Shown one piece after another: positions 1,339 to 60,209 of a stretch of DNA of 64,000 bases (positions within the stretch are counted from its first letter, which is position 1; every line of letters begins with the position of its first letter). The notes under the pieces were generated by a model. The model ran no database searches and was not told the origin of the DNA. It was given only the letters and a program-made list of their open reading frames with translations. This DNA is from Pneumocystis sp. 'macacae' (lineage: Eukaryota > Ascomycota > Pneumocystomycetes > Pneumocystales > Pneumocystaceae), in NCBI GenBank assembly GCA_018127085.1, contig CM030734.1, positions 310,001 to 374,000 on the forward strand, written 5' to 3'. The position numbers were made by a program, and so were the translations under genes.

Positions 1339-2835
1339 ATGGAATTTCAGGATGTGTATGGATTTGTTTCTCTGTATAAAGAAATGTTAAAATTGCTTCA
1401 GATTAACAAATCAACCCATTTGTATCGACAATGTAGTATTCTGATTATGAGCAAAGATTGAGTGTTGATGGCTGCACAGGGCTCTGGAGTTATAAAGGCT
1501 GGATTTGCTGGTGAAGATCAGCCTAAATGTTTTTTTCCATCATAGTAAAATTATAAGAACAATTGCATGAATATCTAAATAACAACACATAGTGTTGGCC
1601 GGCCAAAACATATAAGAATCATGGCAGGCGCAATTGAAGGAGACTTCTTCATAGGAAATAAATCTCAGGACCTCCGCGGCCTTCTGAAGATCAAATACCC
1701 AATAGAACATGGGATTGTCGTTGATTGGGATGATATGGAGCGAATATGGCAGTTTATATATACAGAGGAACTCAAGACCGTTTCAGAGGAGGTATACGCT
1801 GTCTCATGTGCAAAACTAGTCTTCATGCTCACTAGCACCCGGTTCTGTTGACAGAAGCACCCTTGAATCCCCGGACAAACAGGGACCAGGCTGCTCAAAT
1901 CTTTTTTGAGACTTTCAATGTACCTGCATTGTTCATGTCAATACAAGCTGTACTATCTCTCTATGCTTCAGGACGCACAACCGGCGTTGTTTTGGACTCC
2001 GGCGACGGCGTAACACATGCCGTCCCCATTTACGAAGGCTTTGCAATGCCTTCCGCCATAAGAAGAATAGACATAGCTGGCCGCGATGTAACCGAATACC
2101 TCCAGCTGCTGCTCAGAAAGTCCGGCACTGCATTCCACACAAGTGCCGAAAAAGAAATCGTCCGGATCATCAAAGAAAAATGCTCCTATGTTGCCCTCGA
2201 CCCCCGCAAAGAAGAAAAGGACTGGATCACTGCCTCCATCTCGGCCACTCACACCCATCCCAAGGGCGAGGAGTTCAAGCTCCCCGACGGAAACATCCTC
2301 CACCTTGGCGCTGAACGCTTCCGCGCACCCGAAATCCTCTTTGACCCCGAAATCATCGGCTCCGAGTACTCCGGCATCCACCACGTCGTCGTCGACGCCA
2401 TTGCCCGCGTAGACCTCGACCTCCGCAAATCCCTCTTCGGCAACATCGTCCTCTCCGGCGGCTCCACCCTGACAAGAGGTATCCGCTGTCCTGCCCTAGC
2501 CCTAGCCCTGCCCCTCAAACCCTAACCCTGTGCCCACCCCAACCCTATCCATCCAGCCCTACACACCAGCCCCAACCCTGCCCTAACACACACAGGCTTC
2601 GGCGACCGCCTCCTCTCGGAGATCCGCCGCCTCGCCGTCAAGGACGTCAAGATCAAGATCTTTGCCCCCCCCGAGAGAAAATACAGCACATGGATTGGCG
2701 GCTCCATCCTTGCGAGCCTCAGCACCTTCAGAAAGGCATGTCTGCTTCTCCCCCGCTCTCTGACCCCGCCAGATGTGGGTTAGCGCCGAGGAGTACCAGG
2801 ACGACCCCGACATCATCCACCGAAAAAGCATCTGA
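1339..2835 (+). CDS. ARP1: actin-related protein 1 (centractin)
   Basis: Arp1 forms the short actin-like filament of dynactin, which links dynein to cargo and moves nuclei along microtubules. Exons join to give [19 protein letters not shown], then [21 protein letters not shown], the long [20 protein letters not shown] block and [20 protein letters not shown]. The protein ends [20 protein letters not shown], typical of the family. The phosphate loops and the hinge glycines are present. The first exon is only 17 nt (1339-1355). At least six introns are required; the one at 2479-2595 is unusually long (117 nt) and GC-rich, and the last (2736-2772) has a GC-AG boundary. The 5' half uses AT-rich codons while the 3' half uses almost only C- or G-ending codons, although the reading frame and splice structure are continuous. 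Confidence 0.93.
2479..2595 (+). other. long GC-rich ARP1 intron with telomere-like CCCTAA-type runs
   Basis: This intron lies between the codons of STLTR and GFGDRLL. It starts GTATCC and ends ACACACAG. At 117 nt it is more than twice the usual intron length of the window. It is filled with CCCTAGCCCTAGCCCTG and AAACCCTAACCCTG, which resemble the CCCTAA strand of the TTAGGG telomere repeat. The repeats are imperfect, so this may be drift in a C-rich sequence rather than captured telomere. Confidence 0.7.
2736..2772 (+). other. GC-AG intron in ARP1
   Basis: The last ARP1 intron must be removed between LSTFRK and MWVSAEE to give the conserved C-terminus. The donor reads AAAG/GCATGT and the acceptor CGCCAG, so the intron begins with GC rather than GT. 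The remainder of the donor matches a strong GTATGT-type site with a single T-to-C change. Length is 37 nt. Confidence 0.75.
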
Positions 2836-3026
2836 CCACTGCCCGCGCACTCACACACCCGGTTGTCCCGACAACCACCCCCGGACACCCGCCGCCGTTG
2901 CCTTGCATGTCATGGACACTCTGCGCGCACCTGGCTGTCCGCACGTCCGCTGGACTGTCTATTCTCTACATACACTACTCTACACAGCCTGCTCCGCCCA
3001 CTCCGCTCCACACTGCCCACCCAGTC

Positions 3027-3052
3027 CTGTGCAGGGCCGCGGCCCTGCACAG
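3027..3052. repeat. perfect 26-bp GC-rich palindrome between convergent gene ends
   Basis: The 13-base arm CTGTGCAGGGCCG is followed directly by its exact reverse complement, so the whole 26 bp reads the same on both strands. It sits between the stop codons of ARP1 (2835) and GAPDH (3064, minus strand), 12 bp from the latter. As RNA either strand could form a very stable hairpin. A role in 3'-end formation or as a recombination substrate is possible but not shown. Confidence 0.8.
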
Positions 3053-3063
3053 CCCATGCAGCC

Positions 3064-4270
<1,207 letters not shown>

Positions 4271-4363
4271 GCAGCGGGTGTGTGCGGGGCGCGCCTTACG
4301 TGGGCACACGGCAGCACGCAGAGCGAGCGGGCAGTGGGCAGACTGAGCACTGAGTGCAGTGGG

Positions 4364-4643
4364 ATGCCGCGGGCAACAAAGGGTAGGCGGATGCAGAGAG
4401 ACGGGGCTGACAGCAGGCGTGTTGATTGAGTGGTGGGGACGAGGCAGTGGGCGAGGCTGACGGGGCAGTGACCCGACAGTGCGGCAGATCATCCTGAATC
4501 TCGACCGGCAGACACACGACATTGTGCTGGAGGACCTGGAGGAGCGGCTGCTGGTGCATGCACAGCAGATGGGGCGGATCCGTGCGGAGCTGGAGCGGGT
4601 GCTCGAGGAGAACGAGTTTGGGTCGCTGCCGGCATTTGGCTGA
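4364..4643 (+). CDS. small predicted coiled-coil protein
   Basis: No family is recognised. The clear coding part, from about 4472 to the TGA at 4641-4643, reads VRQIILNLDRQTHDIVLEDL, continues with an amphipathic heptad-like helix (LEERLLVHAQQMGRIRAELE) and ends LEENEFGSLPAFG. A first exon starting at ATG 4364 (MPRATK) joined through an intron of roughly 90 nt, with GTAGGC donor and CCGACAG acceptor, gives a protein of about 60 residues. The donor could instead be the GTGTTG some 45 nt further on. It lies only about 90 bp upstream of the divergent GAPDH start and ends 44 bp before the stop of the PQ-loop gene on the other strand. The size and helix pattern would fit a small complex subunit, but that is a guess. 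Confidence 0.5.
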
Positions 4644-4686
4644 GCGTGCTGAGCGTGCTGAGCGGGCACTGGGCGTTGGAAGCGGG

Positions 4687-5570
4687 TTAGGCGCAGGGGG
4701 GGGAGTGTGGAGAGTGGGGGAGGGCGGGGTCGGAGGGGATTCTGAGTCTGGCGGAGGCGCGTAGGGTGCGGGCAGCGCGGAGACGGAAGTAGCAGTGGCA
4801 GAGGATGATGCCGAGCTCGAGGACGATGACGGCCGAGTACGAGAGGGCGGCAAGGGAGTCGACAGCGGGCTCGAACACTGGGGTTAGCGGGGGGCGGCGA
4901 GTGGGGAGATACAGAGAGAGAGGAGGGAGAAGACGGCGCCGCCGATGTCGACAAGGAGGAAGAGAAAGGAGATGCCGCGGACAGAGCGGTGGACATAGAT
5001 GTCGTAGTATGGGGGGAGGAGGCCGATGCAGACGAGGAGAGAGGAGAGGATGCCGATGGTCTGGATGGGCCAGTGGATGGAGCGGAGGACGAGTGTCTGT
5101 GGGGTCAGAGGAGGGGAAGGAGGGCTTTATGGAGACCTTTATGGAGAGGACGGCGAGGGTTTCGAGGAGTGCAGAGGCGGCGGCAGCAGCGGTGAAGGTG
5201 GAGAGGCATTTGGGGAGGGACCATTTCTGGAGGGGTTAGTGAGGGGGAGGGGGAGGGGGATACGTTTTGGTAGTAGAGACACTGTCCCCAGGTAATGAAG
5301 CAGAGGACGGTGAAGAGCTGGGGCTGGAGCTGGAGGGGGATGTTGAAGGAGCGGGAGATGTTGTAGATGCCCATGAAGATGCCGCCGACAGACCAGAGGA
5401 GGAGCATGAGGGGCTGGAGTCCAGCAGTGTTGTGGCGGAGGTAGTTTACGATGATCTGGGGGACGAGCTGGACACACCAGAGGATCTGGGGGGTCAGAGA
5501 GGCAGGGGGAGGGTGGCCGTACGGTGCCGATTGTCCCAAGGACTGCAGCAAGCACAGGGTTGTGTGGCAT
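4687..5570 (-). CDS. PQ-loop repeat membrane protein
   Basis: PQ-loop proteins are seven-helix membrane proteins, many of them lysosomal or vacuolar transporters of amino acids. The start MPHNPVLAAVLGTIGT is joined by a short intron to ILWCVQLVPQIIVNYLRHNT, the first PQ motif with its characteristic following T-x-G-L. Next come LLLWSVGGIFMGIYNI and QPQLFTVLCFITWGQCLYYQ. A later part contains IHWPIQTIGILSSLL and LPPYYDIYVHRSVRGISFLF, which is the degenerate second PQ loop. Three introns are required. The C-terminal helix (SYSAVIVLELGIILCHCYF) is followed by a basic tail. Family membership is clear, but the substrate is unknown. Codons are strongly GC-ending. The start at 5570 is preferred because it gives the conserved N-terminus. 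Confidence 0.85.
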
Positions 5571-6842
5571 GTGCAGAGTGTGGATCTGTAGTGTTTAGGG
5601 GGGGAGGGGGTTGGAAAAGACCTGGGGTAGCAACACAAAAGAAGTCAGAGGAGCCTGGACGCTATGCAGCCTGTTGGGGCGGAGTCTGGGGCCATGTAAA
5701 TTATTTTGGTGAGTGTGGAGCAGAGCGCGTTGCCACTGCCGTGTTGCCATGGGAACGGGTTAGGGTAGCACGGTTGGGATTTGCATTGCACTGTAGTGGA
5801 AGCGTTCAGTAGATTGGGTGCCTTGGGCAGAGTCGAGTGGTGTGTTGATGTGTGCTCGGCGGGACAGGCGGAAGACGTGGTTCGGATGTATGTCTGGCAG
5901 CATTCTGCCCAAATGCTCGTTGTCAGACGGTGTTGCTGGGGCTTTTCGGCAGGGGGCTCCAAATAGGTCTGGCAGGTGCTGCAAGTGCAGACTGCCTGAA
6001 AAAACATGACAAACATGGGCGACGGTTTGACCCGGGGCGTGCTATCATGACATTGGAGTGTCTGTTGAGAAGATCGGTGGTTGTGAGTATCACACGAATT
6101 TTTTGCCTCTGAAATGGGGAAGATGGTATGCAATATCACTGGAACTGGAGAGTGCTTATGCTGCTAATTTTGCGTGGGGGGCTCAGACCTCTGCACAAAT
6201 ATTTTCATTCTGGATGTGCAAAGTAGAATTATGGATACTTTGAAGACCGTTGACCAGAATCCAGTGTTGATCCATACAAGGTGTGTAGCATTATGATTGA
6301 GACGGCTTTTTGGACAAGGAATGGACTCTGGATTGAATTGTTTTTCCTCCGTCTCATAACAAGAAATTGTGCCCATTGTTTTATCAAGATTATATTTGTA
6401 GTCCTGGGGACTCTACCTGGTAGTTTTACTTGTATACTGATTTAATTTGCATTGTTTTCAGGGTTTATCTGGAAATAATTCAGTAAAATTAAGACTATGC
6501 ATGTAATTTGGCATTTCAGGAAAGCCCCTTCAAATAGTTCTTTTATATTTTGTTTTTTAAATAACTTCTTGTTAAATATTTTCGGAATTTTTGAGTTTAC
6601 AAGTTTAAAACAGAGAAGTACTTAGTGAGGCTATTACAACGCATTTGCTTTAGTTTTTAGTTTCTGTATTCAAAGTGTCTATTATTTCATGAAAAATCTA
6701 CATATTTCATCAATTTTATCTAATTAAAAAATTTTATTCAAAAGAAATCTTAAGTTTAACATTTTAAAATATCATAAAAAAACAAGATATTCATACTTAG
6801 ATGAGTATTAATATATACTTATAAATCTTAGAAAAAAGCAAA
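5571..6842. other. gene-free transition from GC-rich to AT-rich DNA
   Basis: These 1.27 kb separate the divergent PQ-loop and MED1 genes, a much longer gap than other divergent pairs in the window (about 120-270 bp). Open frames exist on both strands but none resembles a known protein and none has a convincing intron structure. Intermediate composition between 5700 and 6400 sets it apart from the A/T-simple spacers elsewhere. At 5757-5768 there is a telomere-like GGGTTAGGGTAG. A non-coding RNA is possible but cannot be demonstrated here. Confidence 0.5.
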
Positions 6843-56957: not shown

Positions 56958-59900
56958 ATGAAGGTATTTGTGTTAGCTGGATTTCTTGGCATAGCATATG
57001 CTTTTTTGGAAAATATTGGTACTGTGTTTTTTCTTTTTTTTTGTTTTTAACTTTTTCTAGAATTTATTCACAAGAGATCTGCATTAAATTCTTCAGTAAA
57101 TACATCATTAGTTTTACCAACGTATGAAAACTCTTAAGTAGCACCTAAATGTACAAAATTAACAATTTTTTTATCTAGTAAAGAACAAGTTTTTATTTTA
57201 ATCTCAAAAGATACTTTAAATGGTCAATGCAAAACAAAATTAAGAGAATACTGCGAAGAATTGCGAAATATGGGGCTTTCAGATAAAATGTTAGCTTTTT
57301 ACTCAGAAATGAAGGACTTTTGTGGAAATGAAGAATATGAAAAAACATGTAATAACTTTAAAAAAAATATTGAACCATATTGTGAAAAACTTGAAAAGAT
57401 ATTAGAAAATTTTACTACTGGGTCACTAGAATTCTATAAACAGTGCTTAATGCAAACTGAATGTATTTTATTACAGCAAGCATGTCCGCAAAAACTTAAA
57501 GAGAAATGTAATAATTTAAGAAGTTTATGTCAACAAGAAAAACGGAATAATCTGATGACAGTGTTTCTTTTAAGAGCATTTTCCGGAAATTTGAAAAAAA
57601 CAGAAGATTGCGAAAAAGTAATTGATGAGAAATGTCTTATGTTCATGGGAGAAAGTGATGAATTAATGAAATTTTGTTTAACTGCCTTAAATAGATGTGA
57701 AAATCTTATAAAGTTGGCTAAAACTAAATGTGAAGAGATAGAAGTAGCTACGCAAAACCTTCGAAGCTTTATAGACACTTGTACAAACATTGAAACATTA
57801 AAAAAAATGTGCATTTTATCTCTTAAAGGATGTTATTTTCACAAATCAAATTGCAATGCTAGTTTTCAAAATATTTGTAAAGGATTAGAAGAAAAATGTG
57901 GAGAGGAAAAGAAATACATACCATCTTATTTAACACTTGATCCACTAGAAAAAGAGATTACATTAATCGACAAAATAGAATACAAAGAATTATTTGAGGA
58001 TGAAATTGGAAAACCAGGAACAAAGGATACGATTGATCTTTTAGCATTAATTTCAAATAATGACATGAGTGCTTGTGAGTCTAATATTGAGAGATGTTAT
58101 AAGTTTTGTAGTTCTTTACCTCAACTGAAAGATCTATATGATAACACTGAAAAAAAAATGAAACAAAGTAAAAAAGAAATCTGTACTAACATAAAAGATA
58201 AACTGAAGTCTAAATGCGAGACTTTAAAGTCGAGATTGTATAGCTTATCAATGTCAAGCGCCGAGAATGATGATGATTCTATAGTTTTGGGATGGTTTGA
58301 GCAATCTGGTGATCTCGATGAAAGACTTTGTATAAATTTGGAGTCTGAGTGTTTTTATTTGCAAAAGCATTGTACTAATATAAATATTAAAATGGATAAT
58401 GCATGCACCAATTTAAAATCAACATGTTTAAAGACACGACTTTTTAGAAAAAGTTATCAATTATTTCAGGATCTGTTAAGAGGGAAAATGCATATTTTAG
58501 CAGAAGATGATTTTTTTGAAATTTGCGCCAATGAACTATTGGAACTATGTAAGACAAAAATTGGAGTTCAGAACCCTATATTAATAGATTTTTGTTTACG
58601 ACCATGGGATACTTGTTATGTACTTGGAAGTGATATTGAAAGGCAGAGTCGCAAACTTAGAATCAGTTTAGGCTGGAACAGGGATTTCCCGAATGAAGAG
58701 AACTGCAAAGAATTACAAGAGAAGTGCGAAACATTAGGGAAAGATTCAAGAATGAACAATTTGCCGTGTCTTACGTTGAAAGAACGATGTGATCATTTAA
58801 GGAATGCAAAGGAATTAGAGGAGATTTTGTTAAAAAAAATAAAAAAATTAAACAATTTGGACATATGCATAAGAGAAGTAGCAAAAGTATGCAATAGCAT
58901 GTCCAGAACAAAGAGAACAGGGTTTTCTCTTTCGTGTATACGATTAAACATTACTTGCCAAATGATTGCTAGAGATATTAAGTTTAAATGTAATACTTTA
59001 GGAAAGAACATGGATTTTATGAAAGTTTTAGAAAAAACAAAGGATGAGAATACAGCTAAAGGACCAGAATGCGACCTCTGGGAACCCTATTGTGATAAGT
59101 ATATGTTGAATTGTGAAAAACTTGTAGAAGATAGTGGAAAGGATGGAAAATGCAAGGAATTAAAAAAAAATTGTGGATCATATCGCAACTTACAGAACAG
59201 AGAAAATGAAGTTATGTATATGTTACAAGGAAGCCTTAAAAAAGATAAGTGTAAATCTGTTCTTGATGAACATTGTTTAAATTGGACTAAAACGAACAAT
59301 AATACATTTAAGAACTTTTGTAATGACAATACTGGTGTTAAAAACGATGCAGCTAGAATAGAGTTGTGTCAAAAACTAGAAAAACGAATGAAAGAAAGAT
59401 GTACAAAATTGTTTACGAAACTAAATACTATGGCAACAGAAATAGAAGAGAATGTAGGTGTTCTTGAAGAATTGAACAAAGTTGCAGAGAAAGCATTAAA
59501 AAATGTAAAACTTACTTTGGATAAACAGAAAACAGATATAAATCACGCAGCATTGATTCTACTTTATAATGCAAATGCAAACATAAAAAGAGATCTAAGA
59601 GCAGACGCACTTCAGAAGGATTATCCTAAATATCTGCAACAGAAGGATGCAAATGTAAATATTACTGATGGGGAAGCTATGGCGTTTGATGCAACAACTG
59701 AAGCGTTAAAAGTATATGTAGAAGTGAAAGCAGAATGCAAAAATTTATTATTAGAGTGTGGATTCAAAGATGATTGTTCTGAATATAAAGGTGCATGCGA
59801 GAAAATTAAGGAAGCGTGCAATAAATTGGAACCATTAAAACTTAAGTCCTCAGAGAAAGAAGCAACTAATCAAACTATTATAGAGGCTACTATCACAGAA

Positions 59901-60209
59901 ACAATTATTATCGAAACAAAGTCAGATGGAACGCAAAAGACAGTAACAGCAGAAGGACAATGTCTCTTGGTTCGCACAATGGACAGATGGGTTACGAGTA
60001 CCTCGATATATACGCGCACATCTACACAGACATCTATCGTAACATCAACTGTGACATTGACATCGCAAAGGCAATGCAAGCCTACGAAGTGCACGACAAA
60101 AGGTGAAGAGGATGCAGGAGATATAAAACCGAGTGAGGGGATCAGGATGAGTGGGTGGAGTCTGATGAAGGAAATAATACTGGTGATGGTTATTTCGGCC
60201 GTGGTTTAG
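56958..60209 (+). CDS. major surface glycoprotein family protein with own leader
   Basis: MSG proteins are the abundant, antigenically variable coat glycoproteins of Pneumocystis and mediate contact with host matrix. Exon 1 (56958-57018) encodes the signal peptide MKVFVLAGFLGIAYAFLENI. A 42-nt intron and a 61-nt exon 2 give EFIHKRSALNSSVNTSLVLP, with a KR site suited to Kex2-type cleavage. A second intron (57122-57178, 57 nt) contains an in-frame TAA at 57135-57137 and leads to the long third exon. The mature protein has repeated CxxxxxxC modules with many leucines and lysines, the MSG pattern. It ends in a Ser/Thr-rich stalk (TSTSIYTRTSTQTSIVTSTV) and a hydrophobic tail (LMKEIILVMVISAVV) that looks like a GPI signal. 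Total is 1050 residues. With its own start and leader it should be expressed independently, unlike the gene at 61295. Confidence 0.88.

Follow-up and report, generated by a model that had tools for sequence, protein, structure and literature searches.

Mirror-image strand skew in recurrent GC-rich islands of Pneumocystis sp. 'macacae', a possible mark of recurrent break repair

Results

A GC-rich island that begins within the ARP1 gene and includes GAPDH lies near the start of a 64,000-base window of the Pneumocystis sp. 'macacae' genome (bases 310001–374000 of contig C15, which is 385,180 bases long; the genome comprises 8.27 Mb in 19 contigs). This island has a centre near 4 kb, with the forward strand rich in C before it and in G after it; the switch falls inside GAPDH. 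The same structure recurs at many other sites. The islands are mirror-symmetric about a point and reach about 2–3 kb to each side. On the strand that points towards the centre C replaces A, T and G, whichever strand is coding and at fourfold sites as well. We moderately favour the view that the islands are long-lived sites of recurrent double-strand-break repair, most likely meiotic hotspots, where repair would favour C on whichever strand has its 3' end at the break.

The sequence-only reading of this DNA had placed a sharp GC island at about 1600–6000, starting in the middle of a gene, and proposed sliding-window plots of GC and of GC at third codon positions (GC3) as a check. In 500-base windows, GC is 0.30–0.34 up to 1.5 kb, 0.42 at 1.5–2.0 kb and 0.57–0.67 at 2.0–6.0 kb, after which it falls to 0.40 at 6.0–6.5 kb and 0.24 at 6.5–7.0 kb; every window from 6.5 to 60 kb is at or below 0.384. 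The maximum-scoring GC segment (1965–6042) has a GC of 0.616 versus 0.281 in its 10-kb flank. This bears out the island itself, a rise from about 30% to 57–67% GC through ARP1, GAPDH, a TFB5-like gene and a PQ-loop gene, and also its start in mid-ARP1. Its edge is not sharp, however: GC climbs from 0.30 to 0.60 along a ramp within ARP1 (1400–2300), and a second ramp leads out of the island on the right (6042–6700).

The strand structure, which the earlier reading overlooked, divides the island into two arms. In 200-base windows, GC skew is −0.15 to −0.52 between 2.2 and 3.7 kb in the C-rich left arm (1965–3850), and +0.31 to +0.60 between 4.3 and 5.9 kb in the G-rich right arm (4300–6042). Between them, the skew changes in a zone at 3600–4300, with the cumulative-skew minimum at 4067 and the crossover at GAPDH fourfold sites near 3.8 kb. 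GAPDH (3064–4270, minus strand, six exons) contains this switch, and its fourfold sites count 20 C to 2 G right of 4067 and 9 C to 97 G left of 3850. A gene whose codons tend to end in C on one side of the switch and in G on the other can hardly owe this to codon choice or expression.

Further sites were located through a complete forward-strand listing of runs of at least 16 G/C bases. The 70 runs comprised eight copies of one G/C element, four homopolymers, one run on contig C19 and 57 runs at 32 interior sites, which are spread over 16 of the 19 contigs. The window island itself has no such run, and the listing must therefore miss sites; with 18 single-run and seven double-run sites, a rough Chao estimate puts the total at about 55. 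We examined 25 of the 32 interior sites (leaving out C9 at 117 kb, C11 at 144 and 401 kb, C12 at 73 kb, and C14 at 152, 508 and 580 kb), and all 25 were GC islands with the same structure, which excludes chance as its origin. The window island, which had been treated as a lone oddity, is thus one of many. Several contigs carry more than one: C2, C3, C4, C5, C8, C9 and C10 each have two or three examined islands, and C14 has four sites. The run on C19, a contig of 10.8 kb outside the 32, was rejected as an island, as GC there reached at most 0.56 in 500-base windows and the skew was uniformly positive.

Island length ranges from 2.65 to 6.16 kb among the window island and the 20 islands in 10-kb loci, and the aggregate skew of these 21 passes from −0.38 to +0.36. 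An earlier sign test was centred on the cumulative-skew minimum, which favours the expected order by construction, and the later test therefore used a midpoint defined from GC alone. With that midpoint, all 26 islands (the 25 and the window island) were negative on the left and positive on the right. Their skew contrast averaged 0.564 (0.204 to 0.812) against a block-permutation null of −0.002 ± 0.037; each of the 26 exceeded its own 95% level, and 21 exceeded all 400 permutations. Among 12 AT-rich control windows, three had the same order, two the opposite order and seven neither, with a largest absolute contrast of 0.274. Selecting sites by G/C runs cannot produce a C-to-G order.

To describe the two sides together, we combined both into one profile on the strand running 5' to 3' towards the centre. 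On this folded strand, C rises from about 0.15 to 0.39–0.43 within 1.25 kb of the centre, and G only to 0.20–0.27. A and T drop together, at an A/T ratio of 0.91–1.17, so that there is no AT-skew switch. The profile is smooth, and the effect is mostly gone by about 3 kb.

Fourfold sites were counted in 27 of 30 exon pieces (three without a Pfam match were left out, and two just below the curated cut-off were kept), limited to residues in matched domains up to 2.5 kb from the centre. More than 400 bases from the centre, genes on the left had 263 C to 15 G when on the plus strand and 294 G to 42 C when on the minus strand, and genes on the right had 418 G to 28 C and 250 C to 56 G, respectively. 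Closer in, the skew was weaker with its sign unchanged (left, 50 C to 13 G and 45 G to 25 C; right, 67 G to 8 C and 27 C to 22 G). Skew is therefore set by the side of the centre and not by the coding strand. Relative to a local background of 1227 fourfold sites in 13 open reading frames (ORFs) of the window (A 0.39, C 0.056, G 0.066, T 0.49), the log enrichment versus A+T on the centre-pointing strand is 3.96 for C and 1.80 for G.

These counts make it very improbable that skew and GC track expression or translational selection. Fungal genes do show coding-strand skews, as described in PMC3315797, and GAPDH and the TFB5-like gene are divergent about a spacer near 4271–4460, as a transcriptional origin might have it. 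Yet on both sides coding strands are C-rich when they run towards the centre and G-rich when they run away from it, which refutes a skew linked to the coding strand; the flip also occurs within the single gene GAPDH, and introns are GC-rich as well. The islands do resemble the 5'/3' gene skew of unicellular fungi in being visible at fourfold sites and in amino-acid choice, but the fungal skew follows the coding strand in that account (PMC3315797).

The genes of the window island are intact. ARP1 (centractin; 1339–2835, plus strand, Pfam Actin) spans the island edge in seven exons, and splicing yields an open frame of 385 residues. Its codons had been described as AT-rich at first and C/G-ending later, and this is what GC3 shows along successive 40-codon blocks: 0.23, 0.45, 0.53, 0.40, 0.55, 0.60, 0.75, 0.88, 0.85 and 0.81. 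The GC-rich introns of that reading are the last two of its six (0.62 and 0.68) and the five GAPDH introns (0.51–0.68), against 0.28, 0.40, 0.23 and 0.43 in the first four ARP1 introns. GAPDH splices to an open frame of 340 residues, of which 1–334 can be aligned to a solved GAPDH, and it was the only match returned by a Gp_dh_C search of the genome. Foreign DNA or a chimeric assembly, which the marked shift in composition might suggest, has a practically negligible chance of being correct: ARP1 is unbroken across the edge, other Pneumocystis species are among the best matches of ARP1 and of an LSD1-like gene in another island, and the pattern was found again at a total of 26 loci. The earlier view of intact genes on native DNA thus agrees with our results.

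We compared three island genes (LSD1-like, ARP1 and GAPDH) with relatives, by protein only. In the LSD1-like gene, the ratio of GARP to FYMINK residues over 452 shared columns is 1.17 in P. macacae, 0.82 in P. jirovecii and 0.62–0.65 in P. canis, P. wakefieldiae and two further relatives. This ratio by itself could also mean retention, because ten other fungi range from 1.04 to 1.88. The 21 changes unique to P. macacae include eight GARP gains and one loss, with seven FYMINK losses and no gain. The corresponding figures are three gains, one loss, two losses and one gain for P. jirovecii (seven changes); one, three, four and two for P. canis (11 changes); and two, three, four and four for P. 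wakefieldiae (14 changes). One of the two further relatives had none among its two changes, and the other had one GARP gain, no GARP loss, one FYMINK loss and four FYMINK gains among 12. The unique changes point to a GC-type gain on the P. macacae line.

Exchanges that depend on the third codon position had the predicted signs in the LSD1-like gene and ARP1. Right of the LSD1 centre, D/N/H to E/K/Q exchanges stood at 6:0 versus P. canis, 3:0 versus P. jirovecii, 8:0 versus P. wakefieldiae, and 5:1 and 8:1 versus the two further relatives; in the GC part of ARP1, E/K/Q to D/N/H exchanges stood at 4:0, 4:0, 4:1 and 3:0 versus four relatives. The P. macacae tip is common to all of these comparisons, so they do not count as independent. 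Between P. macacae and P. canis, ARP1 has 17 differences among the 226 residues of its GC part and six among the 159 residues ahead of it, and its GC part shows one GARP-type difference or none. GARP in GAPDH is 0.341 versus 0.284 in a Pneumocystis-like relative (P0002) and 0.237–0.270 in 12 other fungi; P0002 may share the GAPDH island. Judging from these proteins, the pressure appears to alter amino acids and, at the one polarisable locus, to be stronger in P. macacae than in its relatives.

Pfam matches inside the islands belong to ordinary housekeeping families, including squalene synthase, histone, a Cdc14-like SIN component, adenylosuccinate synthetase, SWIRM/amine oxidase (the LSD1-like gene), a CLC channel, RSC4-like, Peptidase_C50 (separase), Cdc20-like, DEAD helicase and ubiquitin hydrolase, among others. 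The window island contains, besides ARP1 and GAPDH, an exon of a TFB5-like TFIIH subunit (4461–4640, plus strand, PF06331) that the earlier gene list lacked and a PQ-loop gene in two exon pieces (4887–5644, minus strand), which that list named and which its Pfam match (PF04193) upholds. The last ARP1 intron (2736–2772) has GC...AG in place of GT...AG, and T-to-C drift of the left arm is perhaps the cause of its GC donor. The best 120 matches listed for GAPDH or ARP1 held no P. macacae entry, though other Pneumocystis ARP1 proteins were present; the genes of the GC islands may be absent from the existing P. macacae annotation.

A search for Rfam RNA genes gave no match in the 14 loci scanned, out of 22. 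A tRNA scan of 22 loci with the bacterial code found one, a tRNA-Cys (L013:5151–5229) that lies 40–120 bases right of an island centre at 5114. The telomere-like word CCCTAACCC occurs in nine of 23 left arms, versus a mean of three elsewhere, and includes an occurrence at 2479–2595 of the window; it is probably the branch-site CTAAC of C-rich introns.

Two other kinds of G/C run stand apart from the islands. Poly-G/C homopolymers of at least 16 bases occur in this AT-rich genome at C6:520751, C10:17583, C10:306591 and C12:166683. The eight copies of the G/C element (at least 23 bases) are at C3:306, C4:553169, C8:480287, C10:472864, C13:6509, C15:374631, C16:10593 and C16:338686, mostly within about 13 kb of a contig end. 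The C15 copy lies just past the window, near a long ORF (57261–60209 of the window) that resembles a Pneumocystis major surface glycoprotein. After this ORF, in the last 2 kb of the window, GC reaches 0.48 and the skew is uniformly positive.

Discussion

The fixed centre, the two-sided reach of 2–3 kb, the strand polarity and the indifference to transcription all fit double-strand-break repair. If so, the chromosome would be broken again and again at the central point of each of several dozen fixed sites, and the breaks would be mended by homologous recombination. Resection of 5' ends would leave the centre-pointing strand as a 3' tail, on which heteroduplex correction, or a bias linked to the newly made partner strand, would retain C, with G opposite. 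Both C and G gain near the centre, and farther out it is chiefly C on the presumed tail strand; the fade at about 3 kb matches the scale of resection and conversion tracts. Biased correction or retention suits the data better than one type of mutation, which would remove A and T to different extents, and deamination of the tail is not the main force, since it would remove C. The genome has a Spo11-type (TP6A_N) match as well as Rad51-family and UDG-family matches. At human hotspots, PMC7615360 describes strand-asymmetric mutations in the flanking 2 kb and a resection that gives 1–2 kb of single strand on each side.

The sequence-only reading had proposed GC-biased gene conversion at a long-lived hotspot. 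The mouse Fxy gene at the pseudoautosomal edge is reportedly a case of this process, for which a conversion-tract model in yeast (PMC3020949) and clusters of GC outliers in gerbils (PMC7403616) have also been described. The islands share with it a local rise of GC in coding and non-coding DNA, edges on the scale of tracts, amino-acid drift and the possibility of starting within a gene, and GC is raised at non-coding and synonymous sites alike (introns and GC3), as at such a hotspot. The process has no strand preference, however, whereas in the islands C and G gain unequally: the centre-pointing strand gains C and its partner G, and the two change places at the centre. GC-biased gene conversion is thus a good candidate, but not in its ordinary strand-blind form, since C on a single strand makes up most of the gain. 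In outline the data support recombination as the explanation, together with a preference for one strand that would not be expected from ordinary GC-biased gene conversion.

Among the alternatives, we give most weight to centromere-like sites, although we still think them unlikely. The islands would then be kinetochore-associated, with several per P. macacae chromosome, and recombination-coupled repair would leave a skew of the Candida albicans type. Centromeres of C. albicans and C. dubliniensis keep their position and have raised GC and a negative-to-positive skew jump of similar size that is over by about 3 kb (74% in C. albicans; PMC2924309, PMC3459929), and the islands have both the raised GC and the jump. 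Moreover, chromatin immunoprecipitation (ChIP) of Mis12 in P. macacae is reported to give about 4–6 peaks per chromosome that tend to GC-rich regions (PMC10327204). On the other hand, the accounts of Candida describe one centromere per chromosome, where AT skew switches the opposite way and GC dips locally, and the islands occur several to a contig, as with the four sites on C14, lie inside genes, and have neither the AT switch nor the dip. According to PMC10327204, each P. macacae chromosome has a single Mis12 peak with heterochromatin at its flanks and homology to the P. murina and P. carinii centromeres, the mapped centromeres of those two species are on average 3.9% lower in GC, and ChIP artefacts could not be excluded by its authors. 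Several islands sharing a contig, together with the lower GC of centromeres mapped in two relatives, led us to reject a centromere with one island per chromosome. Somewhat more doubtful than the kinetochore-associated sites is the combined proposal that the islands are fixed genic centromere-like loci, matching the published Mis12 peaks, at which kinetochore proteins and recombination repair meet; chromosomes would then be multi-site, and the Candida skew would be one instance of a mark left generally by recombination repair around a point.

It is improbable that each island is a highly efficient replication origin with skew from leading-strand mutation. The sign of the skew, with the rightward strand G-rich, is that of a bacterial-type origin, and Koren et al. 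took C. albicans centromere skew as origin activity (PMC2924309); the skew there was later argued to be non-replicative (PMC3459929). In the latter account, skew at S. cerevisiae origins jumps by 9% and persists to about 20 kb, but island skew is gone at about 3 kb. Nor is there a matching T excess, as A equals T on the folded strand, and the doubled GC content lies outside what origin models predict.

Several points weigh against recurrent break repair at meiotic hotspots. We infer both the recombination at the islands and the meiotic nature of the breaks. Human hotspots lose C (C>N) on the strand where the islands gain it (PMC7615360); the mutations there remove C and A from the 3'-tail strand and are rare, whereas the islands show near-fixed composition, and the likeness lies in the mirror asymmetry within about 2 kb of the break site. 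C. albicans centromeres bear a similar mark and are not known as meiotic hotspots in the accounts cited (PMC2924309, PMC3459929). Pneumocystis is regarded as homothallic, and since gene conversion acts only where sites are heterozygous, selfing would make it weaker. The weakest island has a contrast of 0.204, below the largest control contrast (0.274), so single loci are weaker than the whole set. In GAPDH, third-position exchanges of 1:1 and 2:2 gave no signal, and polarised changes (11 on its own line, nine on the P0002 line) were without strong bias. Within 400 bases of the centre at 23 loci, the enriched words of 6–10 bases were G/C-mixed, as expected where a C-rich arm meets a G-rich arm. 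The top words of 7, 8, 9 and 10 bases occurred in 22, 15, 9 and 7 of 26 loci, against maxima of 22, 14, 10 and 6 in 60 Markov runs; GCAGCAGC and GCGCAGCCGC, the top words one locus above the simulated maximum, are weak as a centre signal, and we claim no motif.

A literature search on titles and abstract starts, with most subscription papers outside its scope, found such islands undescribed in Pneumocystis beyond the remark on Mis12 (PMC10327204). A term search of the P. macacae genome paper (PMC7940399) gave 0 hits each for 'gc content', 'gc-rich', 'isochore' and 'hotspot'.

Because the mirrored skew has a polarity, it offers a way to tell whether a GC island stems from break repair or from replication or transcription, and it may be relevant to the contested skew at Candida centromeres. 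In the islands, housekeeping proteins are being driven away from their usual amino acids, which matters for work on codon usage, phylogeny and primers, including those for GAPDH. If recurrent break repair is the true explanation, recombination hotspots could be read from the genome alone in a fungus without continuous culture, and repair would have a bias for one base on one strand that lies outside the standard theory of gene conversion.

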